A stretch of 64,000 nucleotides of DNA from Winogradskyella eximia (GTDB taxonomy: Bacteria > Bacteroidota > Bacteroidia > Flavobacteriales > Flavobacteriaceae): positions 506,622-570,621 of the forward strand of contig NZ_QRDV01000002.1 of assembly GCF_003386165.1 (NCBI RefSeq), read 5' to 3'. How positions within the stretch are numbered: the stretch's first letter is position 1; every line of letters begins with the position of its first letter. Below the pieces are notes generated by a model. The model searched no databases. It was not told the origin of the DNA and saw only the letters and a list, made by a program, of their open reading frames with translations. The position numbers and the translations under genes are program-made. Positions 4,817-15,832 of this stretch are shown here, in pieces.

Positions 4817-7015
4817 TCAATAACAATCCATTTTAAGCTGATCGTTGTTTTCAAATGCACTTAACGGTTTGTCTAAGTGTGTTGTAGTGATGGTATGCAA
4901 TACCTCTAAAACGCGATTTTGCATGGCTACAGAACCACAAATCATTACCACTCCACCTGTATTTAAAACACGGCTTAATAAGTCTTGATGCTCTAAAATT
5001 AAATCTTGAACGTAAATTTTATCTTTCTGCTCTTGTGAATAGGCAATATGAAAACTAGATAAGTTTTTCTTACTAAATGCCGAATCGATAATGTTTTCGT
5101 AAATATTTAGAGAATCTTGTGTGCGTCCTCCCCAAAATAAATGGTTCTTTGTTTTAATATGATTCTCATTAATCATTCCTAAAAACGGTGCAATTCCGGT
5201 ACCGTTGGCTATCATTACCACTTCTTTTACATCGGTTGGAAAATGAAAATCTAAGTTTCGTTTAACTTGCGCTTTAACGATTTCATTGACTTTTAAGTTG
5301 TTAAAATAATTAGAACAGACCCCAAATTCGTGTTTTTTGATGCTTAAAATAATGTCATTTTCTATTTTACCAATAGAATATTGGCGTTCAACAAAATCGG
5401 CTTCAGGATATAAAGACAACAAATCACCAGACTCAAATTTTACTTTTTTTTGTGGTCGCAATTGCACTAAAAATGAATCGTCATTATTAGGCTCTGATTT
5501 ATTAATAACCTTAAACTCCTTTAATTTTTTTAAATTGATTTGAGGTTTTTGAAACTTAATCTTTAAATCGTGATTTGTATGCTCATTCCATTGCTTAATC
5601 CATATTTTATAAGCTTCAAAGGATTGATTATTAATTTTGAAAAGCGGAAGGTGTTCCTCAAAATTGTCTTGCTTTTGAAACATCTCATCCACTTCAATGG
5701 CATATTTACAATAGTCAGGATACATAAGCGATCCAAAACCAACAATTGCATACTTCATCGTTTGCTTCTGCTGCACTTTTCGAAATACTTTTTCAAAATT
5801 TGAAGCACTTGTTGGTGCTTCACCTTCGCCATAAGTCGATGCAAAAACAGTGATATATTTCGCATTTTTATATTCTGAATACGCGTTTAAAGCTGTAATA
5901 AAAACCGAATGACCTTCTGCGATTAAAGCGTCATAAAATAGCTTGGCAGAATTAAAGGTATTGCCAGTTTCAGAACCCACTAAAATGATATAGTCTGCCT
6001 CATCTTTTTTAAATTTATTCTTAATTATCGAGGTTTCTTTTCGTCGTTTTAACGTCATAGAAAAGCCAGAATACATAAAAAACAAAATAGCCAAACTCGC
6101 TAATAACAATACTATTGACCAAAGGATAGTCCCTTGACCTGTATGTAAAATTAAGCTCCAATAAGACGCTAATACTACAAGCGAGGTTTTCTGGTTGCTG
6201 ACGATAGCTCCTGTATATTGATTGACTAAAATTTCCTTATCCGATAATTTAACGGTGAAATAATCTTCAATATCATCAGAAAACGGAAACTCAACATAAC
6301 TTACATCTTCAAGTTTTATGTTTTGAAACGTTTGAAACTCTAAGATGTCTAATTTGTTTTCAACAGCATCTTGCTCAGGATAATTGTGTGAGATTTTTGA
6401 ATCTGGAAGTAAATCAAATTTTTCAAGCGATAGAAATACACCAGTCAGTGTAATAATTACAATAGGAATTAAAGCATATCGTCCTATAACAACATGGTAA
6501 TATTGATCAAAGTTTTCTCTAACCACTTTAGAAAAGAAACGTTTGATACCACCTTGACGTTTTAATATTAGTTGAATTCCTGTTACTGAAATCAGAAATA
6601 GCAAAAAGGATACGACTCCTATTAAAACACGACCTGTTGTTTTTAGGAACAGCGAACGATGAAGGTTAGTTGCGAATTCATAAATAGGTGCTTTCTTAAT
6701 AATATCATTTAATTTTTCGCCTGTAATGGGATTGATATAAAAGGTTTCACTGTCTCCTTCTTTGGTAATGACTGAGGCACTTACGAAATCATTTTTATCG
6801 ACTTCGAGTGTAAATACCTCATCATATTCTTGTTGTAACACATTTAAGGTTTCAGCAAGAGACCTATCGTTTGCCCCAGAAACAGCATACGGTTGCAACT
6901 GATTTGTAATGGGTTCAAACGCTAAAATAGCACCTGTTACCGATGCTATTAAAATGAATAAAGAAGATATGACAGCCAATACTAGATGACTGTATCTCCA
7001 GATGGAAATGGTCAT
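4817..7015 (-). CDS. PepSY transmembrane / flavodoxin / FAD-NAD(P)H reductase fusion
   Basis: This 732-residue inner-membrane protein looks like a complete electron chain in one polypeptide. Residues 1-330 form a PepSY-TM module with four membrane helices (near 11-33, 130-150, 178-198, 283-315). Histidines H10, H119, H174 and H291 are placed to bind two b hemes. Residues 341-480 are flavodoxin-like with the FMN loop GSETGNT (347-353). Residues 500-732 are a CPR-type reductase with the FAD motif RQYSIG (544-549), the NAD(P)H motifs GTGIAPF (605-611) and CGSVAM (693-698), and a terminal tyrosine. The expected role is moving electrons from cytoplasmic NAD(P)H across the membrane to a periplasmic acceptor. 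It ends a four-gene operon. A ferric or heme reductase role is inferred from the neighbouring heme receptor genes. Confidence 0.9.
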   Translation of the reverse strand: MTISIWRYSHLVLAVISSLFILIASVTGAILAFEPITNQLQPYAVSGANDRSLAETLNVLQQEYDEVFTLEVDKNDFVSASVITKEGDSETFYINPITGEKLNDIIKKAPIYEFATNLHRSLFLKTTGRVLIGVVSFLLFLISVTGIQLILKRQGGIKRFFSKVVRENFDQYYHVVIGRYALIPIVIITLTGVFLSLEKFDLLPDSKISHNYPEQDAVENKLDILEFQTFQNIKLEDVSYVEFPFSDDIEDYFTVKLSDKEILVNQYTGAIVSNQKTSLVVLASYWSLILHTGQGTILWSIVLLLASLAILFFMYSGFSMTLKRRKETSIIKNKFKKDEADYIILVGSETGNTFNSAKLFYDALIAEGHSVFITALNAYSEYKNAKYITVFASTYGEGEAPTSASNFEKVFRKVQQKQTMKYAIVGFGSLMYPDYCKYAIEVDEMFQKQDNFEEHLPLFKINNQSFEAYKIWIKQWNEHTNHDLKIKFQKPQINLKKLKEFKVINKSEPNNDDSFLVQLRPQKKVKFESGDLLSLYPEADFVERQYSIGKIENDIILSIKKHEFGVCSNYFNNLKVNEIVKAQVKRNLDFHFPTDVKEVVMIANGTGIAPFLGMINENHIKTKNHLFWGGRTQDSLNIYENIIDSAFSKKNLSSFHIAYSQEQKDKIYVQDLILEHQDLLSRVLNTGGVVMICGSVAMQNRVLEVLHTITTTHLDKPLSAFENNDQLKMDCY

Positions 7016-7025
7016 AGTATCTGTT

Positions 7026-7511
7026 TTATTGAGGCATCATTCGGATGTAACGGATAAATCCTTTTCCTTCTACTTTAGATTTTATGGTCTCTGAAGTTAA
7101 TTCAAATTCCACATCACTTTCGTAATAGTCTTGATCTTCAACAGCGGTTTCAAATCTTAACTTGTAACCTTTATCTAATTTGTCGTTATCAATTTCAATG
7201 ACATTAATGGTACGCTCTCCTCCACTCACTGTGGCTCCTGTAATAGCATCAATATCATTACGTTTTTTGCCGTAAAAGTCCCACCAAGACTCTACGGTAT
7301 TATACCATTCATCATCGTCGCCAATAACGTTTAAGGTTTCTACATAGTCACCTTCAGGACTTAGTAATGAAATAACAATATAGGCTCCTTCACCTGTATA
7401 ATTTGTCATTTGAATCATGCACTTATATTTTGCTGATTCTGTAAAATTAGTAAATGATACTAAACTAAAAACTACAATAAATAGTAATGCTGTAATGCGT
7501 ATATTCTTCAT
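7026..7511 (-). CDS. Secreted DUF2271 protein with a candidate flavinylation motif
   Basis: This 161-residue protein has an N-terminal signal peptide (hydrophobic residues 5-22) and matches the DUF2271 pattern of small periplasmic beta-sandwich proteins encoded next to PepSY reductases. Residues 88-94 read DAITGAT. This fits the D-x-x-[ST]-G-A-[ST] motif that ApbE-type transferases modify by attaching FMN covalently to the last Thr (T94 here). It lies 10 bases upstream of the PepSY reductase gene in the same operon, so it is the obvious periplasmic electron acceptor. FMN attachment is inference from the motif, and no apbE gene is in this window. Confidence 0.8.
   Translation of the reverse strand: MKNIRITALLFIVVFSLVSFTNFTESAKYKCMIQMTNYTGEGAYIVISLLSPEGDYVETLNVIGDDDEWYNTVESWWDFYGKKRNDIDAITGATVSGGERTINVIEIDNDKLDKGYKLRFETAVEDQDYYESDVEFELTSETIKSKVEGKGFIRYIRMMPQ
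7230..7250 (-). other. DAITGAT codons: candidate FMN attachment site
   Basis: These codons give DAITGAT in the DUF2271 protein. The same signature, DAISGAT, occurs in the FMN-binding protein encoded at 14018-14539. Confidence 0.55.
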
Positions 7512-7524
7512 CTTAAAAATTCTA

Positions 7525-9006
7525 TTACTTTAAAAATTCTATTGAAACATTGTTTTTCTTTAACAACTCATTTTCTTGTGCTAAATCATAAGCAGATTCT
7601 TCAAAATCCGTAACGATATCTTTCTTTGCCCCATTTTCTATAAGAAACTTAAGAACAGAATCATCGTTAGCTTTTAATGCAGCTAAATGTAAAGCAGTAT
7701 TACCTTCACTATTTTTTGCATTGATATCTTGATTCATATTTAATGCCAATTTTAATAAATCAAGACTATTTTTTTCAGCTGCTAAATGAAACCAATTATT
7801 TCCATTTTTTTGCACTTGAGCTAAATTGACCTTATTCGCTTTTAATAATGCCATTTTTTTAGAAAACACTTCCTTATTTCTCGTTGAATACGAATCAATT
7901 AAATAATAAATTAAATTATTTCCTTCATTATCTACAATAGTAGTTTTAGAGCCTTTATTGATTAAGAATTCTACAACATCTGAAGTATTTCCGCCTACAG
8001 CGAGCGTTAAAGCCGACTGCCCTTTCTTATTAGTATCATTATAGGTTTTTAAATTTTCAGCTAAAAGCTTAACAATCTCTACGCTATTTTTTGAAGCCGC
8101 ATGCATTAATGCATTATTGCCTTTATGATCTTTAGTACTCACCACTAAACCTTTAGCTATTAGGAAATCGATAACTTCTTCATCTTTACTTCTTGCAGCT
8201 AAAATATGTAATGGTGATACCCCTTCTTTATCATATACATTTGGATTTAAACCTACACTTTCTAAGTACTTATAAACCTCAATACCATTAGCTGCACCTC
8301 TTGCCCCATTTGCCGCAAATATAAATGCTTGATCAGTGCCTTTAATTCCTTGTTTCAATAAGGCATTTAACGATTCTATTTGACCTTTTTTGGTAACGTA
8401 ATTAAAAATACCATTCCCTTCACTATCAACACTATTAATATCTAATCCTTTAGACTGAAAATAGGATACCAATTTAAAATCTGGATCATTTGGTGCTGCT
8501 AATAATAAAGCGTTGGCTCCATCTGGATTTAAGTCCTTCTGTATGTCTGCTCCATATTTGATAACGAGATCATATACTTTAGTATTTTGTTGACCAGAAC
8601 CAGCTGCGAAATTGATTATAGAATTCCCTTTATCGTCTGTTATATTGGTTTTTGCTCCATGCTCTAAAAGGTATTTCACCAATTCGTCATTACCTTTAAA
8701 AGCAGCCCAAAACGCATAGGTTCTACCATCGTGCGTTAATTTATTGACGTCATTTCCTTTTTGAGAAATTAAATAAGTAATGGTTTCTAAAGGTGCATCT
8801 TGTAACGTTGCGTAAACGACTCCATCAAAATTATTTCCATTGGCTTCAGCAGGATTATTGCCTTTATTTATTTTCTCTTTTATAATTTCTACCGTTGGCT
8901 GGGTTTTCCAAAACTCACGATCTAAAAAAATATTCTTATTCTGAGCAAAAGTGGATAATGACATTGCTACAAAAAGTATGAATAATGTTGATTTAATTAT
9001 TTTCAT
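7525..9006 (-). CDS. Secreted ankyrin-repeat protein
   Basis: This 493-residue protein begins with a signal peptide (MKIIKSTLFILFVAMSLSTFAQ), so it is exported to the periplasm or the outer membrane, which is unusual for an ankyrin protein. Most of the remainder is ankyrin repeats of about 33 residues. Clear ones include DDKGNSIINFAAGSG, DKEGVSPLHILAARS, DHKGNNALMHAASKN and NSEGNTALHLAALKA. It is the second gene of the operon, 25 bases after the DUF6607-like gene and 13 bases before the DUF2271 gene. Its place between secreted proteins and a membrane reductase suggests a periplasmic protein-protein scaffold for heme/iron uptake, which is inference. Confidence 0.88.
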   Translation of the reverse strand: MKIIKSTLFILFVAMSLSTFAQNKNIFLDREFWKTQPTVEIIKEKINKGNNPAEANGNNFDGVVYATLQDAPLETITYLISQKGNDVNKLTHDGRTYAFWAAFKGNDELVKYLLEHGAKTNITDDKGNSIINFAAGSGQQNTKVYDLVIKYGADIQKDLNPDGANALLLAAPNDPDFKLVSYFQSKGLDINSVDSEGNGIFNYVTKKGQIESLNALLKQGIKGTDQAFIFAANGARGAANGIEVYKYLESVGLNPNVYDKEGVSPLHILAARSKDEEVIDFLIAKGLVVSTKDHKGNNALMHAASKNSVEIVKLLAENLKTYNDTNKKGQSALTLAVGGNTSDVVEFLINKGSKTTIVDNEGNNLIYYLIDSYSTRNKEVFSKKMALLKANKVNLAQVQKNGNNWFHLAAEKNSLDLLKLALNMNQDINAKNSEGNTALHLAALKANDDSVLKFLIENGAKKDIVTDFEESAYDLAQENELLKKNNVSIEFLK

Positions 9007-9031
9007 ATATGATGATTTATTTTAAACTTAT

Positions 9032-9934
9032 TTATTTTACAAATGATTCTATAATACGATTAATGTCTTTTTTAGCTGTTATTTCGTCATCTAATAAGTA
9101 TTTGAACAACACTTTATTATCCACTTTTTCAGCCAAGGTTAAATCTTTATTTCTGCCATAAACTGCATCCCATTTTGTTCTTACCAAAGCCCATTTATCT
9201 TGTTGTGCTTTCCACCAGTCTTTTGAAGCTTGACATCTACTATCATCCACTTTTTTATAGGTATTATACCCTTTTTCCTTGGCAATAATAACGTCTTCTT
9301 TTCCTATTTCTCGTAACACTTTCTCATTATCTTGATCGTGTACCCAACCATAGTTTGTTATCTCGTGACGGTTACCTCTTAATGTAATATTATAATCGCT
9401 GCGTTTGGTGTATTCGCGTCTTGGTAATGGTGCTGTTGTTGTGTTTTCCCAGTAATTTTTACCATCGACATGCACCCAAGTACCAGAACCTTCATAACGA
9501 GGACTATCATCTACCTGAAAAACTTTTTGTGTCCACTGCCCTTTTACATCATCCTTAGATTTTTTTTCAAAGGTCCAATTATTATCGCCATTATACATGT
9601 AAAACTCTTGATTTTGAAATAACCAATCTTGTCTCCAGTGTTTAATAATCATCGGACTATCTGGTCTCCCAACTTGTAATAAATGTTGAATTGAGATTTT
9701 ATCATCCTCATCTACAATAGCAAATGCATACTCTAAACCTTTATCAACTTTAGTTTCAGAAGGTCTATAAAGTGAATCGCTACTATAGTTAAACGTCTCT
9801 GTAAAATTGAACGTTACTTCAAAACAACCACACATGGCTTTAATGGCTTCTTGATCTAGAGTTTTCTTTTTTTGTGCATTACTGCTTAATGTAAATGCTA
9901 ATACAATAACTAAAACTGGTACTACTCTTTTCAT
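9032..9934 (-). CDS. Secreted protein, probably DUF6607 family
   Basis: This 300-residue protein has a signal peptide (residues 1-20, ending SSNAQ). Right after it comes a MCGCFEV motif with two closely spaced cysteines. The middle is rich in Trp, Tyr and beta-strand-like segments (WVHVDGKNYWENTT, RREYTKRSDYN), followed by a charged C-terminal helix region. The overall pattern agrees with what I remember of DUF6607, a family of unknown function. It is the first gene of the minus-strand operon and shares the 102-base intergenic region with the divergent heme receptor gene, so co-regulation is likely. The Cys pair could bind metal or heme, but that is speculation. Confidence 0.65.
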   Translation of the reverse strand: MKRVVPVLVIVLAFTLSSNAQKKKTLDQEAIKAMCGCFEVTFNFTETFNYSSDSLYRPSETKVDKGLEYAFAIVDEDDKISIQHLLQVGRPDSPMIIKHWRQDWLFQNQEFYMYNGDNNWTFEKKSKDDVKGQWTQKVFQVDDSPRYEGSGTWVHVDGKNYWENTTTAPLPRREYTKRSDYNITLRGNRHEITNYGWVHDQDNEKVLREIGKEDVIIAKEKGYNTYKKVDDSRCQASKDWWKAQQDKWALVRTKWDAVYGRNKDLTLAEKVDNKVLFKYLLDDEITAKKDINRIIESFVK

Positions 9935-9983
9935 ATTTAAAAGTTTACTGTTGTGGTTAAAAAAAAATTAAAAAACCTTATTC

Positions 9984-10006
9984 TTATTTAGAATGAATTA
10001 AAATAA
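9984..10006. promoter_or_regulatory. Fur-like operator between the DUF6607-type operon and hmuR
   Basis: Half-sites TTATTTA (9984-9990) and AAAATAA (10000-10006) flank a 9-base spacer; the wider inverted repeat TCTTATTT/AAATAAGA also holds (9982-9989 and 10001-10008). It ends 6 bases before the -7 element of the heme receptor gene, so a bound protein would block RNA polymerase. A near-identical site lies at 15805-15827. The iron-responsive assignment is inferred from the genes controlled. Confidence 0.55.
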
Positions 10007-10011
10007 GATTA

Positions 10012-10019
10012 TATATTTG
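10012..10019 (+). promoter_or_regulatory. -7 promoter element for the heme receptor gene
   Basis: TATATTTG matches TAnnTTTG exactly, 18 bases before the start codon at 10037. No good TTTG is seen at -33, where the operator lies. Confidence 0.65.
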
Positions 10020-10036
10020 CGGCAAATTTATATAGA

Positions 10037-12181
10037 ATGAGTCTAATTAAAAATAAAAATCCATTTTATTTTTTACTTTTTTTAAGCTGCTTTTTAAATG
10101 CTCAAGAAAAAGAAAGAGACAGTACTAAAACTGAAAAACTAAAAGAAGTCGTTGTCGTTGGTGAAAGCAATGTGACTTCTGTAAGTAAAAAATTATTTAC
10201 AGTAAGTACTATAAAAAGGGCTGATATTGATAATGTCGCTGGATCTAATTTAGCAGATATCTTATTTAATAGCTTAAATATTACGGTGACTCCAGATGCT
10301 TCATCAGGACGCTCAACCGTTAGTCTATTTGGTCTGGACGGTCAGTATGTAAAAATTCTAGTCGATGGTATTCCTATTGTTAGTGATAATGGCCTAGGAA
10401 ATAATATAGACATTTCACAAATAAACATCGATGATATTGAACGTGTAGAAATTGTAGAAGGCTCAATGGGAGTATTATATGGTGATAATGCTGTAGCTGG
10501 AGTTATTAATGTAATTACTAAACGAGGATTAAAAGATCAGGGTTGGCAATTACAATTGTCCTTACAAGAAGAAACTGTTGGAGATGAATTTGAGTTTTTC
10601 GATGAAGGCAGACATATTCAAAATTTTAGGGCAACCAACCAAGTCAATGAAAAATTATCTTACGCCTTTGGTGTCTCTCGAAATAATTTTGCTGGATACT
10701 ATAATGGCTATAAGGGGCAGAACTATGTTAATATTCAAGATAATATTGTTGTAAATGATAGCTTACGTGGTACAGAATGGAATCCTAAAGAACAAATTAC
10801 GGCCTCGGCTAATGTAAGTTTAGACTTAGGTAAACACAATGTGTTTTATAAATTGCAATACTTTAATGAAGATTTAGACATATATAATCACATTGTAAAC
10901 GGTAGATATCAAAACGGTACGCTCAATCCAACTGCATTAGATGAAAATTATAAAACGGATAGATGGGTTAATAACATCAATGTTTCTGGTCCACTAAAAG
11001 GAGAAACCAAGTATAATTTTTCATTTTCCTATCAAAATCAAAAACGAAATTATAAAGAGTTTGTTTATAACATTTTTGAACAACAAAATCAATCTGTAGA
11101 AACGGATGCTTTAAGCCAATCGAGTGAAGTTTGGTACTCTAAAGCCTTTGTAAATAATATCGTGTCGCAATCTCGTTTTTTTGATTTGCAGCTTGGGTAC
11201 GAGTTTACTAATCAAACTGGTTTTGATGCTAATGCTTCTGGTGCTTATTCTAATAACGTCGTAGAAAATACAATTACTAATTATGAATTATTCGGTATTA
11301 CTGAGTTTCAACCAACAACTAAATTATCAATAAACCCAGGAGCTCGATTCACTCATAGTTCGCAATTTAATAATCATGTCATATGGTCCTTATCCTCTAA
11401 CTATGACTTTTCAGAAAAATTAAAATTAAAAGCTGTAGTAGGCTCAGCTTATAGAGCTCCTAATTTTGAAGAACTTTTCTTCTATTTTGTAGATGCCAAT
11501 CACAACGTACAAGGAAACGAAGACTTGCAACCTGAAGATGGTATTTCGGTTTTTGTTAACTTAAAAGATAACTTTAAAATTGCTAAAGAAGGCTATTTAA
11601 ATACCAACTTTAACTTTTTTCATATCTACTTAAAAGACGCTATTACCAGCATTACGACTGAAGACGAAGATGGAAGAACGTTATTTACACAAGACAATAT
11701 AGATTATAGTTCAAGACTAGGGTTTACATTAGATAACAGTTTTATTTACAAAAACTGGAATATTGGTATTGGAGGTACATATCTCGGAGTTAAAAATGAC
11801 ATTCAAGCCTCTGGATCTGGTAATGAGGATTATTTATGGAGTCTTAATCTACAAACGTCGTTGGCTTACAAGATACCTAAATGGCTTACTACAATTTCAG
11901 CCCAATTAAAATATACAGGTGAAACCGAAGGGCTTTTTAGTAATAGTGATGGAGAACCATTTGTTGGTGTAACCGAATCTTTTACTTGGTTAAACGCTTC
12001 CATCCGAAATAAGATTACATCTAATATAGAAGCCACACTTGGCGCTAGAAATATTTTTGATGTTGTAAATATCAACTCCTCAACTTCAGCAGGAAGCCAT
12101 ACGGGTTCAACATCTACATCTCGACTTATCGGTAACGGCCGATCTTATTTTTTAAAATTAACATATAACTTAAATTTTTAA
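10037..12181 (+). CDS. TonB-dependent outer-membrane receptor, HmuR/heme type
   Basis: This 714-residue protein has a signal peptide (residues 1-22, ending LNAQ) and a TonB box-like segment LKEVVVVGES. A plug domain spans about residues 45-160 (VLVDGIPIVSDNGLGNNIDI, VEIVEGSMGVLYGDNAVAGVINVITK), followed by a beta barrel ending in LKLTYNLNF. It lacks the SusC-type N-terminal extension, which fits small-ligand receptors. The next gene, 11 bases downstream, encodes a HmuY-type heme-binding lipoprotein, so heme is the most likely ligand, as in the HmuR-HmuY pair of Porphyromonas. The promoter carries a Fur-like palindrome. Energy would come from TonB (a tonB gene is at 52738-53469). Confidence 0.88.
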   Translation: MSLIKNKNPFYFLLFLSCFLNAQEKERDSTKTEKLKEVVVVGESNVTSVSKKLFTVSTIKRADIDNVAGSNLADILFNSLNITVTPDASSGRSTVSLFGLDGQYVKILVDGIPIVSDNGLGNNIDISQINIDDIERVEIVEGSMGVLYGDNAVAGVINVITKRGLKDQGWQLQLSLQEETVGDEFEFFDEGRHIQNFRATNQVNEKLSYAFGVSRNNFAGYYNGYKGQNYVNIQDNIVVNDSLRGTEWNPKEQITASANVSLDLGKHNVFYKLQYFNEDLDIYNHIVNGRYQNGTLNPTALDENYKTDRWVNNINVSGPLKGETKYNFSFSYQNQKRNYKEFVYNIFEQQNQSVETDALSQSSEVWYSKAFVNNIVSQSRFFDLQLGYEFTNQTGFDANASGAYSNNVVENTITNYELFGITEFQPTTKLSINPGARFTHSSQFNNHVIWSLSSNYDFSEKLKLKAVVGSAYRAPNFEELFFYFVDANHNVQGNEDLQPEDGISVFVNLKDNFKIAKEGYLNTNFNFFHIYLKDAITSITTEDEDGRTLFTQDNIDYSSRLGFTLDNSFIYKNWNIGIGGTYLGVKNDIQASGSGNEDYLWSLNLQTSLAYKIPKWLTTISAQLKYTGETEGLFSNSDGEPFVGVTESFTWLNASIRNKITSNIEATLGARNIFDVVNINSSTSAGSHTGSTSTSRLIGNGRSYFLKLTYNLNF

Positions 12182-12192
12182 CACTAAATATT

Positions 12193-13383
12193 ATGACAAA
12201 CAAATTTTTAACATTGGTATTATTTATAAGTACTGCACTTTTTACAGGTTGTAGCAAAGATGATGATGGTACGTCAACACCTGTTACTGCTCCTTCCTCT
12301 GGTGGTATTATAGACCCTGAAGTTGGAGGGTTTAATCAGGCTAATCGCGTGTATGTAGATTTAAGTACTGGTACACAAATCTCATCTCGTCGCGATTCAT
12401 GGGAAATTGCTGTATATAACGGCTCTCAAAATAGAGTTTATCTAAATAGCACATTATTGGTCTCTGCTGTAGAATTAGAAGGTATCAATGACATTACAAC
12501 AGTTTCTGAAACAACGACATTAACATCACCTGTAACGTTAAATGCGTTAGACCAAACTTTTACGCCAACCACAGTAACTGTTTCCACTGTTGCTGAGTTA
12601 ATGCAAGGGCTTCCGATTGGTTATTATCAATACGGTGATTTAAGTGCTGGTATTTCTTTTACTGATAGTAAAGAAGGTGAATTAACAGGCACTGCGTTCG
12701 ATGAAATTTCTACTACAGATGGTAACAATAATGTTTACATTGTAAATTTAGGAAACGACATACCAGCAACAAACAATGGTACGCTAAATACTACTGGAGA
12801 CCCAAGAGGTTTTATGAAGGTAAGAGTTTTAACCGACGGAAGTAGTTATACTATTCAATACGCTCTACTGAGCAATACTGTTGATTATTCTGAAATCACG
12901 GTAACTAAAGATAGTAACTACAACCTTACTGCTGTAAGTTTAACAGATGGTCAAATTGTTAGCGTAGAACCAAAATCTTCAAATTGGGATATTGATTTTG
13001 GTGGTGTATTTTCTTATTACGGTTTACAAGGTACTATAGCTGCTGGATTAACTTATTCTGATTACACATTACATAACACACTTAGTGGTGTTGGTTTATA
13101 TCAAATAACTATTGAAGATGATGCTACTCCAAGCTATACCAATTTCACCTTAGCTGATATTAATGAAACTAATTTTATATATAATGATCGTACTGTAGTC
13201 GGTAGCGGTTGGAGAAGTGTAGATTATTTGACAGGTGAAACTTCGGTAAGAGAAGATCGTTATTATATCGTAAAAGATACGGATAACAACTACTACAAAT
13301 TAAGATTTACTGCTGTTGAAAGTGAAACAGGTGAAAGAGGTTACCCTCAATTTCAGTATGAATTATTAGTAAGTGACAACTAA
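12193..13383 (+). CDS. HmuY-family heme-binding lipoprotein
   Basis: This 396-residue lipoprotein has a lipobox LFTGC near residue 20, followed by an Asp-rich spacer typical of surface-exposed Bacteroidota lipoproteins. The HmuY-family pattern is visible twice: VYVDLSTGTQISSRRDSWEIA with RVYLNS, and later SVEPKSSNWDIDFGG. HmuY proteins capture heme and deliver it to the partner TonB receptor, encoded here immediately upstream. It is about twice the length of the P. gingivalis protein, which is common for flavobacterial members. A strong terminator follows. The specific heme-ligand residues cannot be assigned by eye. Confidence 0.85.
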   Translation: MTNKFLTLVLFISTALFTGCSKDDDGTSTPVTAPSSGGIIDPEVGGFNQANRVYVDLSTGTQISSRRDSWEIAVYNGSQNRVYLNSTLLVSAVELEGINDITTVSETTTLTSPVTLNALDQTFTPTTVTVSTVAELMQGLPIGYYQYGDLSAGISFTDSKEGELTGTAFDEISTTDGNNNVYIVNLGNDIPATNNGTLNTTGDPRGFMKVRVLTDGSSYTIQYALLSNTVDYSEITVTKDSNYNLTAVSLTDGQIVSVEPKSSNWDIDFGGVFSYYGLQGTIAAGLTYSDYTLHNTLSGVGLYQITIEDDATPSYTNFTLADINETNFIYNDRTVVGSGWRSVDYLTGETSVREDRYYIVKDTDNNYYKLRFTAVESETGERGYPQFQYELLVSDN

Positions 13384-13415
13384 TCAGTAATTTATAAAAT
13401 AATCTAAATTTGATT

Positions 13416-13450
13416 AAAAAAGTCCTTATTGAAAAATAAGGACTTTTTTT
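13416..13450. terminator. Terminator of the hmuR-hmuY unit
   Basis: The stem AGTCCTTATT (13421-13430) pairs with AATAAGGACT (13435-13444) around a GAAA tetraloop. A and T runs on the two sides extend the stem and make it active both ways. Confidence 0.9.
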
Positions 13451-13514
13451 ATACTACTATGTAAAATATATATGATTTAATCATCTACCATTATTACACT
13501 AATAATTAATTTCA

Positions 13515-14018
13515 TCATTTTTTATAATGTGCTGGTGATTTTAGCAATTGTTTCAGAATTACAACAATAGCAAGTGTATAACACAAGGTCATTAATAAAC
13601 CAGAAACCATAACCACATACTTTACCCAAAGCATGCCTTTCCACAATAGGTAAAGTCCACCAAAGGTTAAGATTACAGAAACAAAAGGCTCTATTAATAA
13701 GAAGATTTTTAACTTATAATTAAGTCTTGTAGTCACCAAAATTAAGCCTGTAAGAAAGAAAATAATTGACATTGATAAAATATGTCCATGAACTAAAGTG
13801 AGCATTTCTTGTTCACTTTTTTTAAATCTCATTACATCAGCTTCTTCATCGTCTTCATTCCCTAAGTATTGTTCTTCTATTCCATTTGGACGTGCTGAAG
13901 ATGTTTCACCGACAAACAAAAGTCCGGTGTAAAAACCAACACTTAATACAATAACAAAAGCTGCAATAAGCAGCTTTAATTCCTTTGGAAATGTTTCAAT
14001 GAGGCCATTTACTATCAT
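13515..14018 (-). CDS. Small integral membrane protein, four predicted helices
   Basis: I do not recognise the family of this 167-residue protein. Hydrophobic segments are near residues 15-36, 80-97, 104-124 and 131-156. An acidic loop (GNEDDEEADVMRF) follows the first helix, and VHGHILSMS stands at the start of the second. The two histidines in HGH could bind heme or metal, but no full bis-His pattern can be shown. Its ATG overlaps the stop of the FMN-binding gene by one base (TAATG), so the two are probably translationally coupled and may form a complex. It is the last gene of the porin operon. Confidence 0.75.
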   Translation of the reverse strand: MIVNGLIETFPKELKLLIAAFVIVLSVGFYTGLLFVGETSSARPNGIEEQYLGNEDDEEADVMRFKKSEQEMLTLVHGHILSMSIIFFLTGLILVTTRLNYKLKIFLLIEPFVSVILTFGGLYLLWKGMLWVKYVVMVSGLLMTLCYTLAIVVILKQLLKSPAHYKK

Positions 14019-14539
14019 TATATGAGATCTTTAGCGCTTAATATTTTTAAGGACTTCATTAAATCATCCATAGCTTTTGTCATAGATCTTACTGAAATAG
14101 TTGCTCCAGAAATGGCATCGATATTATCACCATATCTAAACTCATCGTCCTTGGTTTTACCAATAAACTGTTTTAACCAACGTTTACTTCCTATTTCTCC
14201 TCCGTAATCTTCACGATAAATTAAGACTTTCGTTTTAACAATAACTAAGTTAATATCTAACAGCACCAAGTAATCAAACTGATCTGTTTTACTTGGTGCT
14301 TTAGACACGTATGCATATCCTAAAAGTTTAGTGTCTTTTTTAATTTCGAAAAAATTATCAGCACCAAATTTTGAAGGTAATTCTTTTGCAACATTAGAAG
14401 CTATTATTTTAGCATCGAAAGAAAATGATTCTACAGAGTACGTTTTCTTTATTTCAGAATCTACTTTCTTTTGAATGTTTTTAGGCAATCCAAAAGCAAG
14501 AATAGATAGTACTAAAATGATAATGCTACTTAATTTCAT
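14018..14539 (-). CDS. Secreted FMN-binding domain protein
   Basis: This 173-residue protein has a short N-terminal hydrophobic segment (signal peptide or anchor, residues 3-18). Its C-terminal region is typical of the FMN-binding domain found in RnfG, NqrC and NosR. The motif DAISGAT (residues 141-147), followed by ISVRSMTKAM, is the covalent FMN attachment signature, with T147 the expected acceptor. A preceding YGGEIG segment also fits the domain. Such proteins carry electrons outside the cytoplasm. It is co-transcribed with an outer-membrane porin and a small membrane protein under a Fur-like operator. A role in extracytoplasmic iron or flavin redox chemistry is inference. Confidence 0.85.
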   Translation of the reverse strand: MKLSSIIILVLSILAFGLPKNIQKKVDSEIKKTYSVESFSFDAKIIASNVAKELPSKFGADNFFEIKKDTKLLGYAYVSKAPSKTDQFDYLVLLDINLVIVKTKVLIYREDYGGEIGSKRWLKQFIGKTKDDEFRYGDNIDAISGATISVRSMTKAMDDLMKSLKILSAKDLI

Positions 14540-14565
14540 ATTGCAATAGTATTAAATTGTTTTAA

Positions 14566-15723
14566 TTAGAACCAAACTCCTAAGCCAATATTTAATTGGT
14601 TAGGACTATCTTCATCTGTTGCATCATTAAAAAATTGATAATCTGCTTTTACAACAGCTCCTGGTGCAATTTTATAGCTTAAACCAAATGTCCATTCATC
14701 TCTGTCGTAAGCATCATTTTTTACTAACGCACCTTCAACAGAAGCATGTGTATCGTAATCAGAATAGCGTGCAAATGCAAATAATTGTTGTTCCTTGTTT
14801 TGTGGTAATAAATTATAAGCACCTTCAACATACCAACCTTGTAATGCACTACCTAAATCGGCACTATTAAGTGTATTATAATCTTCGGTATCTGAAATAC
14901 TGGCATGTATAAATTGACCTCTTGCTGTAAAACGTTTGTAAGCATAACGTGCATCTAAGCCAATCATAGAAATACCAACACTAGTACCATTAATATCTTC
15001 AATTTCATCTTCGGCTTGTGTTCTCCCAAAATATCCAGACAATCCTAAGCGCAAACCTGGTAAGCCATAATAATCTAGTTTAGCAGCAAAGTTTGGTGAG
15101 TCTACTGTAGATTGAATTCCTTTTTGTCTTCCATTTCTTAATCCATTTGCTCCTCCTAAAACCTTAGAACCATTTACAGATTTAAAGCCATTAAAAATAT
15201 AAGCTTGATAACGTAATGAAACATTATCTACACGACCTGCAACACCAAAACCAATCTCTCTCCAAGTGGTTGGCACAATACTCTTATCTATACTTGGTCT
15301 TTCAACTCCATTAAAAGTTGTTGGCTCATGATACTCATTCGTTATTCCCATAGGTACTAACATTAACCCACCTCTAAGGTTTACATTATCAGTTAAACTA
15401 TATTGTACAAAGGCTTGCTCTACAAAAACTTCTTCTACATGTTCTAATTCAATTTCTGTAACAAATTGTACACGGTCGTTAAACTTATAACCAAAAAGTA
15501 ATACTAAACGTTGTACATCTAATTCTCCATTATCACCTTCTGGTTGGTTGTATGTAATCTCTCCATAACCACCAACTGTAACACCAGTATTGATATTTCC
15601 TGATAAAATACGCTGCGCTGCATTTTGTTGCGTTTGAGGATTAGTAGACAATGAATCTGGTACCGTTTGCGCATATGTAAAGGATGCAATTAAAAGGGTA
15701 AGACTAAGGGTAATTTTCTTCAT
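14566..15723 (-). CDS. Outer-membrane porin, phosphate-selective porin (OprO/OprP) type
   Basis: This 385-residue beta-barrel protein has a signal peptide (residues 1-18, ending TYAQ). Alternating hydrophobic strands run through the protein, and the last strand ends in a terminal Phe (NIGLGVWF), the standard outer-membrane signature. Segments such as VTVGGYGEITYNQPEGDN and LFAFARYSDYDTH fit the OprO/OprP-like porins common in Flavobacteria. The ligand is unknown; the family name does not prove phosphate transport. It heads an operon with an FMN-binding protein and a small membrane protein. Its promoter has the clearest operator in the window, which points to iron control rather than phosphate control. 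Confidence 0.82.
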   Translation of the reverse strand: MKKITLSLTLLIASFTYAQTVPDSLSTNPQTQQNAAQRILSGNINTGVTVGGYGEITYNQPEGDNGELDVQRLVLLFGYKFNDRVQFVTEIELEHVEEVFVEQAFVQYSLTDNVNLRGGLMLVPMGITNEYHEPTTFNGVERPSIDKSIVPTTWREIGFGVAGRVDNVSLRYQAYIFNGFKSVNGSKVLGGANGLRNGRQKGIQSTVDSPNFAAKLDYYGLPGLRLGLSGYFGRTQAEDEIEDINGTSVGISMIGLDARYAYKRFTARGQFIHASISDTEDYNTLNSADLGSALQGWYVEGAYNLLPQNKEQQLFAFARYSDYDTHASVEGALVKNDAYDRDEWTFGLSYKIAPGAVVKADYQFFNDATDEDSPNQLNIGLGVWF

Positions 15724-15771
15724 TAGTATTCTTATTTAGACTTGATATGAATTATTTTTCATTTTAAGCTG

Positions 15772-15802
15772 CAAATTTAAAACAGAATAGTAATTACACA
15801 AA
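15772..15802 (-). promoter_or_regulatory. Promoter of the porin operon
   Basis: On the minus strand a -33 TTTG (15802-15799) and a -7 TAAATTTG (15779-15772) are separated by 19 bases, a good match to the Bacteroidota consensus. The left arm of the adjacent palindrome overlaps the -33 element. Confidence 0.7.
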
Positions 15803-15832
15803 GTTTATTTAGATTAATTTTAAATAAACTTT
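15800..15832. promoter_or_regulatory. Fur-like operator of the porin operon
   Basis: AAAGTTTATTTA (15800-15811) and TAAATAAACTTT (15821-15832) are a perfect 12-bp inverted repeat with a 9-base spacer. The 23-base core (15805-15827) has the same half-site, spacing and nearly the same spacer as the site before the heme receptor gene. It covers the -33 region, consistent with repression. Confidence 0.6.

Follow-up and report, generated by a model that had tools for sequence, protein, structure and literature searches.

The stretch of DNA considered here comes from Winogradskyella eximia (assembly GCF_003386165.1, contig NZ_QRDV01000002.1, contig positions 506,622-570,621 of the forward strand; host genome 4.24 Mb), and its full 64,000 nt are hereafter called the window. 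It raises the question of whether genes for heme uptake and neighbouring genes for a flavin-based electron chain belong to one iron-acquisition system. An earlier note had read nine genes of this region as a single electron pathway; the positions and families that it gave for all nine hold by reading frames and Pfam matches, and the joining of two modules at window positions 4817-13383 was confirmed. The region is likely to be a Fur-controlled iron island, in which a RhuH-RhuR-HmuY unit stands in one predicted operon with an ankyrin-DUF2271-PepSY module that would reduce ferric heme or its iron. This reading is carried by features observed in the DNA, namely the order and families of the genes, the homology to RhuH with its heme ligand, a flavinylation threonine, four histidines, Fur-box-like sites and the recurrence of the arrangement among relatives.

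Four genes run head to tail on the minus strand from position 9934 down to 4817 and are separated by 25, 13 and 10 bp, so that they form a predicted operon. They encode a DUF6607 protein (9032-9934), an ankyrin-repeat protein (7525-9006), a DUF2271 protein (7026-7511) and a fusion of PepSY_TM, Flavodoxin_1 and NAD_binding_1 domains of 732 amino acids (aa), predicted to be an inner-membrane electron carrier (4817-7015). A total of 102 bp divide the DUF6607 gene from a divergent plus-strand gene for a TonB-dependent receptor assigned by Pfam, which occupies the HmuR/RhuR position (10037-12181) and is followed by the gene of an HmuY-family protein (12193-13383). Past the latter, a second minus-strand set encodes a porin, an FMN_bind protein and a four-helix membrane protein. 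The nearest named relatives at this locus are other Winogradskyella, with DUF6607 identities of 92-95% (L032-L034, L072).

The DUF6607 protein matches one solved structure, entitled 'haemophore' (8xjc_A, E 2.7e-83, residues 11-294). Its H99 aligns with the heme-ligand His96 of RhuH (KHWRQDW) and is kept without exception in the aligned sequences (82 of 82), rows under a score threshold being omitted from this and the other alignments used for conservation counts. By homology the protein is thus a RhuH, which corrects the earlier label 'DUF6607-like'. A full-text literature search for the name 'DUF6607' gave no paper, so it is the present comparison that connects the Pfam family with RhuH. The RhuH of Riemerella anatipestifer binds heme at ~34 pM, extracts it from hemoglobin and is released in outer-membrane vesicles; its His96 was modelled as a heme ligand with the support of a mutant (PMC11967795). 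In that species, rhuH is divergent from rhuR-rhuA, which encode the receptor and an HmuY-like protein; the promoter common to both directions contains a Fur box, and the control of rhuH by iron and Fur has been established (PMC11967795). The window shows the same divergent layout, a Fur-box-like site between the two directions and the conserved ligand, and by this layout its heme half is a known system of the RhuH/RhuR/HmuY type. It differs from the Riemerella rhu genes in that its rhuH heads a predicted operon with the ankyrin-DUF2271-PepSY genes, whereas the ankyrin-containing set of R. anatipestifer lies at a distant locus tag (PMC5429918).

The HmuY protein contains two matched stretches in a profile comparison, corresponding to two HmuY-like halves, and its gene (PF14064, 5.6e-18) adjoins the receptor gene with a gap of 11 bp, as is characteristic of HmuY/HmuR pairs; the lipobox of this protein, like the signal peptide of the ankyrin protein, was read by eye. 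Heme ligation by two histidines, as in the HmuY of P. gingivalis, was not found in the window HmuY, which has one, H294, kept in 35% of 54 sequences; HmuY proteins elsewhere use other heme ligands (PMC12106395). Related loci were retrieved with the DUF6607 of the window itself, giving a set of 60 that is biased to its relatives and includes some stretches shorter than 20 kb. A receptor match was present at 55 of these 60 loci, and our own HmuY profile matched 48 of them, missing short HmuY proteins such as L077:7142-7792, which Pfam recognizes as HmuY. Moreover, a gene for a DoxX-family membrane protein recurs beside single-domain HmuY genes (L181:12547-13014 and other loci), and at one locus a protein whose C-terminal domain is of the type IX secretion kind lies between HmuY and DUF6607 (L084:8729-9979).

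As regards the flavin half, the PepSY fusion (PepSY_TM 7.6e-35) is the sole PepSY_TM match in the genome at E 0.001, and its reductase domain matches nitric oxide synthases. The four candidate heme-ligand histidines and the three cofactor motifs pointed out in this protein earlier are kept in its aligned relatives: H10, H119, H174 and H291, all in the membrane region, are identical in 61 of 61 sequences, and the motif residues for flavin mononucleotide (FMN; E349/G351/T353), flavin adenine dinucleotide (FAD; R544/Y546/S547) and reduced nicotinamide adenine dinucleotide (phosphate) (NAD(P)H; G605/T606/G607) are at least 95% conserved. PepSY proteins of the FoxB type hold two hemes, each by two histidines (PMC11334425), and the four invariant residues agree with this di-heme pattern as judged by their conservation. 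Reductase action has been established for the PepSY proteins VciB, FoxB and XusC (PMC8238504, PMC11334425, PMC13142918). In the DUF2271 protein (Pfam 1.3e-39), residues D88, G92 and T94 are at least 95% conserved in 68 sequences and the [S/T]GA[S/T] motif occurs as TGAT, and T94 (IDAITGAT; codon 7230-7232) is predicted to be covalently flavinylated. ApbE flavinylates a DUF2271 protein that carries this motif, and a role in iron reduction has been proposed for clusters of PepSY and DUF2271 genes (PMC8238504). The window resembles these PepSY-like flavinylation systems, defined by a PepSY_TM gene in a flavinylation-associated cluster, in having a PepSY_TM protein with an NAD-binding domain beside DUF2271; it differs from them by its ankyrin gene, its linkage to heme uptake and the lack of DUF4198 and of ApbE among the nine genes. 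ApbE has two matches elsewhere in the same genome, and in Riemerella columbipharyngis (L216) the ankyrin, DUF2271 and PepSY fusion genes stand in a row and are followed by an ApbE gene. In one further genus, ApbE and DUF2271 domains occur in a single protein, a candidate for self-flavinylation (L167:7813-9378).

The third member of this half has ankyrin repeats as its sole Pfam content. Its AlphaFold2 model (mean predicted local distance difference test score, pLDDT, 94.3) consists of helical repeats through the mature length, and the highest conservation is found at residues 61-129 and in the C-terminal cap. The word 'ankyrin' is absent from the main text of PMC8238504 and from the parts covered of PMC11334425 and PMC12004947, and literature searches combining ankyrin, PepSY, TonB-dependent and iron, or iron limitation and Flavobacteri, found no paper. 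The flavin half is accordingly of a known kind, PepSY/DUF2271, with an ankyrin partner for which no description was found.

The recurrence of these parts was evaluated in one genome per genus of the family, chosen without regard to the locus. Among the 149 genera, DUF6607 was present in 55, DUF2271 above the cut-off in 48 (matches below it, in G096 and G133, were dropped), HmuY in 66 and an ankyrin homologue (1e-30) in 44, the second piece of one ankyrin gene (G079) being merged. HmuY lay within 10 kb of DUF6607 in 49 of the 55 genomes, compared with ~0.3 expected by random placement, and DUF2271 did so in 30 (~0.2 expected), both expectations being uncorrected for relatedness. The ankyrin or the DUF2271 gene was found within this distance in 31 of the 55 DUF6607-bearing genera, while FMN_bind followed within 3 kb behind DUF6607 in eight other genomes, no DUF6607 locus having both partners in these spans. 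The flavin genes were also linked among themselves: DUF2271 was within 3 kb of 44 of the 46 ankyrin genes, one exception being situated at the end of a contig (G015) and the other being an extra copy (G079), and 50 DUF2271 genes had the ankyrin gene within 3 kb at 44 and a typed PepSY gene within 6 kb at 46, the latter count resting on 47 typed genes (long fusions and three shorter neighbours). Furthermore, in 296 genomes of the phylum, DUF2271 was above the cut-off in 22 and the ankyrin gene was found in 20, all of which also had DUF2271; at most five ankyrin candidates were scored per genome, which makes the absences soft. From this co-occurrence of ankyrin with DUF2271 and PepSY, the three genes were taken as a module of their own. 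Of the 60 related loci, 47 carry all three and 45 have them in the order of the window. The expectation that the families would co-occur is thereby borne out for the heme unit with ankyrin and DUF2271, far above chance, but all seven families do not form one unit.

The promoters point to common control. The Fur box of Riemerella is ATTTAGAATTATTCTAAAT, with gel-shift support at hmuR and other promoters (PMC5609570), and mismatches were counted here against ATTTAGAATNATTCTAAAT. With up to three mismatches, three matches were found in the 64 kb, where 0.34 were expected and none of 100 shuffles reached three. All of them sit at the operons described: a palindrome (9986-10004) and a second match (10030-10048) between rhuH and the receptor gene, with three mismatches each, and another palindrome upstream of the porin operon (15807-15825, two mismatches). 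The match at 10030-10048 may be partly coding because it overlaps the start codon of the receptor. In relatives, DUF6607 was preceded by a site with up to three mismatches at 53 of 60 and 16 of 20 loci, the former figure including sites over the receptor start codon; without that codon, the strict count was 23 of 60 (0.4% of shuffles), or 49 of 60 with up to four mismatches (2.9% of shuffles). A box with up to three mismatches preceded HmuY in 1 of 59 cases and other sampled genes in 3 of 190. Where the ankyrin gene is part of the rhuH operon, none of 48 loci had such a box in front of it, so the module behind rhuH seems to depend on the rhuH promoter. Where the module stands separately, a site lay upstream of the receptor in 8 of 10 loci, and 5 of 17 ankyrin reading frames had a box of their own.

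Published data on R. anatipestifer bear on the response to iron. In strain CH-1 under iron limitation, rhuH, the receptor and HmuY (B739_1415-1417) rose by log2 values of 4.7, 3.8 and 4.5, and the same table lists a receptor (B739_0173, 3.3), a hypothetical protein (0174, 3.6), 'Ankyrin' (0175, 2.4), 'Predicted periplasmic protein' (0176, 3.1) and 'Nitric oxide synthase' (0177, 1.0); the table shows the ankyrin gene as iron-induced without comment on a link to DUF2271 or PepSY (PMC5429918). In strain RA-YM, iron restriction raised HmuY (6.71), HmuR (7.89) and the gene at the place of rhuH (7.25), together with a TonB-dependent receptor (RAYM_04481, 6.36), two hypothetical proteins (04491, 5.24; 04496, 3.42), a 'Nitric oxide synthase' (04501, 2.80) and the 'Thiamine biosynthesis protein ApbE' (04506, 1.84) (PMC5609570). 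Judging from annotation names and order, both gene runs would be the ankyrin-DUF2271-PepSY module; for RA-YM this assignment draws on the match of the reductase domain to nitric oxide synthases and on the ApbE gene that follows the module in R. columbipharyngis. The iron response proposed for the window is consequently backed in part, by look-alike Riemerella genes, identified by name and order, whose expression rises under iron limitation in both of the published data sets, and by Fur-box-like sites at both promoters of the window. The earlier note had named chance-level co-occurrence and a lack of any iron or heme response as outcomes that would speak against it, and neither was seen; its idea of shared regulation stands, and that of one system stands only partly.

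Several observations weigh against the favoured reading. The divergent heme receptor and HmuY pair described earlier is sound in families and layout, but the family score is not enough to establish a heme receptor, since the window receptor reaches 73.9 bits for TIGR01785, below the cut-off of 316.85. The strict count of Fur boxes (23 of 60 at up to three mismatches) is weaker than the full one. The RA-YM run is listed as iron-responsive in the wild type and the fur mutant alike, and the Fur table, in the part covered, holds HmuY, HmuR and the rhuH gene and not this run (PMC5609570), which therefore speaks against a simple Fur reading of the module there. No ApbE was found by Pfam among the nine genes; it is frequent in such systems but not required by their published definition. 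Neither flavin partner lies within 10 kb in 16 of the 55 DUF6607 genomes, and 13 of the 60 related loci are without the module, seven of these having FMN_bind directly behind DUF6607 instead (e.g. L080). Finally, the module is also found without DUF6607 and contains the sole PepSY_TM match of the genome, so that it may serve all iron import.

The last point leads to a strong rival, namely that the flavin module is a general reductase of ferric or siderophore iron which has only its regulation in common with heme uptake and does not act on heme, the joining of the operons merely saving a promoter. We regard this as possible rather than likely. Twenty loci were fetched around DUF2271 genes without DUF6607 nearby, 16 of which carry the ankyrin gene; in 9 of these 16 a receptor of ~800 aa stands just upstream. 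Eight of these nine also have a gene of one ~430-470 aa cluster and six an AraC-type regulator; the one cluster member tested shows weak similarity to DUF4374 (E 0.0016, below the cut-off), and the arrangement is like that of XusABC (PMC13142918). The occurrence of the module with a receptor and a protein weakly similar to XusB makes a general role in iron reduction, rather than one confined to heme, probable for it. In Bacteroides, XusABC likewise combines a receptor, a surface lipoprotein and a PepSY inner-membrane reductase, XusC, which is held to reduce siderophore iron (PMC13142918). The window differs from it in that HmuY and RhuH replace the DUF4374 protein XusB (no DUF4374 was found by Pfam in the nine proteins), the reductase has its own flavodoxin and NAD(P)H domains, and DUF2271 and ankyrin are added. 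The rival is further favoured by the distant locus tags of the heme and ankyrin sets in Riemerella (PMC5429918), by the single PepSY_TM match in the window's genome and by the published tie of PepSY-like clusters to iron reduction (PMC8238504). Against it, the flavin module is linked to the heme unit in 31 of the 55 genera with DUF6607, and FMN_bind takes the same place in eight others; shared regulation alone predicts no such repeated joining.

Some individual loci show other combinations of these genes. At L171, where DUF6607 is missing, the ankyrin gene is accompanied by HmuY and its receptor, and L046 has an extra TonB receptor of ~800 aa between DUF6607 and ankyrin (L046:10930-13356), uniting the heme and receptor-module arrangements. 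At L163 and L164, which have no ankyrin gene, DUF2271 and a short PepSY gene adjoin genes for a receptor, an imelysin, DUF4856 or HTTM/gamma-carboxylase-like proteins; these neighbourhoods are another iron-import company for the DUF2271-PepSY pair.

The second reading to be considered is that of the earlier note, in which all nine genes form one electron pathway and the second operon is the outer part of the chain. This operon comprises, on the minus strand, the Porin_O_P outer-membrane porin (14566-15723), the FMN_bind (RnfG-like) protein with predicted flavinylation at T147 (DAISGAT; 14018-14539) and the four-helix membrane protein (13515-14018). In its favour, the same Fur-box-like site occurs upstream of the porin operon in 19 of 21 relatives (up to three mismatches), the heme unit and the porin operon adjoin in two other genera (L176 and L206, with the heme unit on the other side of the porin), and FMN_bind follows DUF6607 in other genera, once with the four-helix gene (L184). 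Among the 66 matches listed, from which porin-type loci were picked, eight are directly behind DUF6607 and three more (G000, G018, G050) within 10 kb. On the other side, the porin operon occurs at 1 of the 60 related DUF6607 loci, and 19 of 20 porin-type loci, hand-picked from these 66 and mostly away from DUF6607, have neither DUF6607 nor HmuY genes, the other (L206) having DUF6607. A single pathway of nine genes is thus improbable, and the claim that the porin, FMN_bind and four-helix genes form one unit with the others is not supported as it was put: the three stand together in 20 of 20 fetched loci, of which 19 also contain an IMP dehydrogenase gene and 18 a gene of the HMG-CoA-lyase-like kind, and by sequence they are a separate conserved operon with the same box. 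As genes of the IMP dehydrogenase and HMG-CoA-lyase-like families flank the whole region in the window too, the heme unit lies inside, or grew up beside, an older porin-operon neighbourhood, with which insertion and ancient linkage both fit.

The histidines H77 and H79 (HxH) of the four-helix protein are invariant in 24 of 24 sequences. It has 1934 homologues and belongs to PF27139 of a newer Pfam, with no match in the Pfam copy used, and its structure model gave no significant structural match. Its role may be that of a heme or quinone protein which feeds the FMN_bind protein, and it may be part of a second extracytosolic flavin system, separate from the first but in the same regulon. A longer, near-perfect palindrome, AAAGTTTATTTAGATTAATTTTAAATAAACTTT (15800-15832), has the box of the porin operon as its core. 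A small Cys-containing protein was found after FMN_bind behind DUF6607 in several genera (L080:11417-11797, L084:11430-11789 and L179:10455-10832), with a weak DUF6686 match in L084 only.

The weakest alternative, that the flavin chain is protective and serves, while heme is imported, to detoxify heme or peroxide or to repair periplasmic proteins that have been oxidised, draws on the varied uses of extracytosolic flavin chains (PMC8238504) and on an acceptor that the present data do not fix, and is very improbable in view of the outer-membrane receptors near the module in 12 of the 20 fetched loci without DUF6607 and of the published iron control of such genes (PMC8238504, PMC12004947, PMC5429918, PMC5609570).

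Other known systems share parts of this arrangement. The HmuYRSTUV system has HmuY and the receptor in common with the window, and its de-chelatase HmuS removes heme iron in an NADH-dependent manner in gut Bacteroidota (PMC12583661), whereas the window's genome gave no match to HmuS (CobN-like, PF02514). The Caulobacter genes CCNA_03155-03159 likewise comprise flavin reductase, PepSY and DUF2271 genes and are raised in iron-starved cciT and cciO mutants; they differ in including DUF4198, and the part of the source covered neither mentions ankyrin nor shows a joining to heme uptake (PMC12004947). A pepSY gene is included in a figure of Porphyromonas heme-uptake clusters (PMC12106395), so a PepSY gene beside heme uptake is not wholly new. 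The haemophore, the PepSY/DUF2271 systems and Fur control were therefore known already; what is new is that the chain has an ankyrin partner and that heme uptake has repeatedly been joined with flavin chains of the extracytosolic kind.

Under the favoured reading of a joined, Fur-controlled island, low iron would cause Fur to leave both promoters, RhuH would take up heme, and HmuY and the receptor would hand it to the periplasm. Electrons of NAD(P)H would pass by way of FAD and FMN to the two hemes of the PepSY protein and from there to the flavin bound covalently to DUF2271, which would reduce the incoming ferric heme or the iron brought by it. The ankyrin solenoid would be a docking frame for DUF2271 and its client, and the reduced iron would enter as Fe(II) via a ferrous route. 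We infer that electrons reach heme or its iron, that the ankyrin protein acts as a frame and that entry is as Fe(II). The neighbouring porin operon would belong to the same regulon as a second flavin operon that works independently. A bolder extension can be put forward tentatively: flavobacteria might free heme iron reductively in the periplasm, with a flavinylated DUF2271 protein, charged by PepSY and docked on an obligate secreted ankyrin solenoid, reducing the heme delivered by RhuH and HmuY, and such a chain might have been assembled twice at the same locus (DUF2271/PepSY and FMN_bind) in place of the HmuS of gut Bacteroidota.

Through the comparison, the Pfam family DUF6607 is connected with heme binding by way of RhuH, and DUF2271 emerges as the precise partner of an ankyrin-repeat protein that has a signal peptide. 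A recurrent operon of a proven haemophore family and an extracytosolic electron chain is a direct candidate for the release of iron from heme past the outer membrane, and this joined arrangement, which recurs in many related genera, would allow the iron of captured heme to be reduced when iron is scarce.

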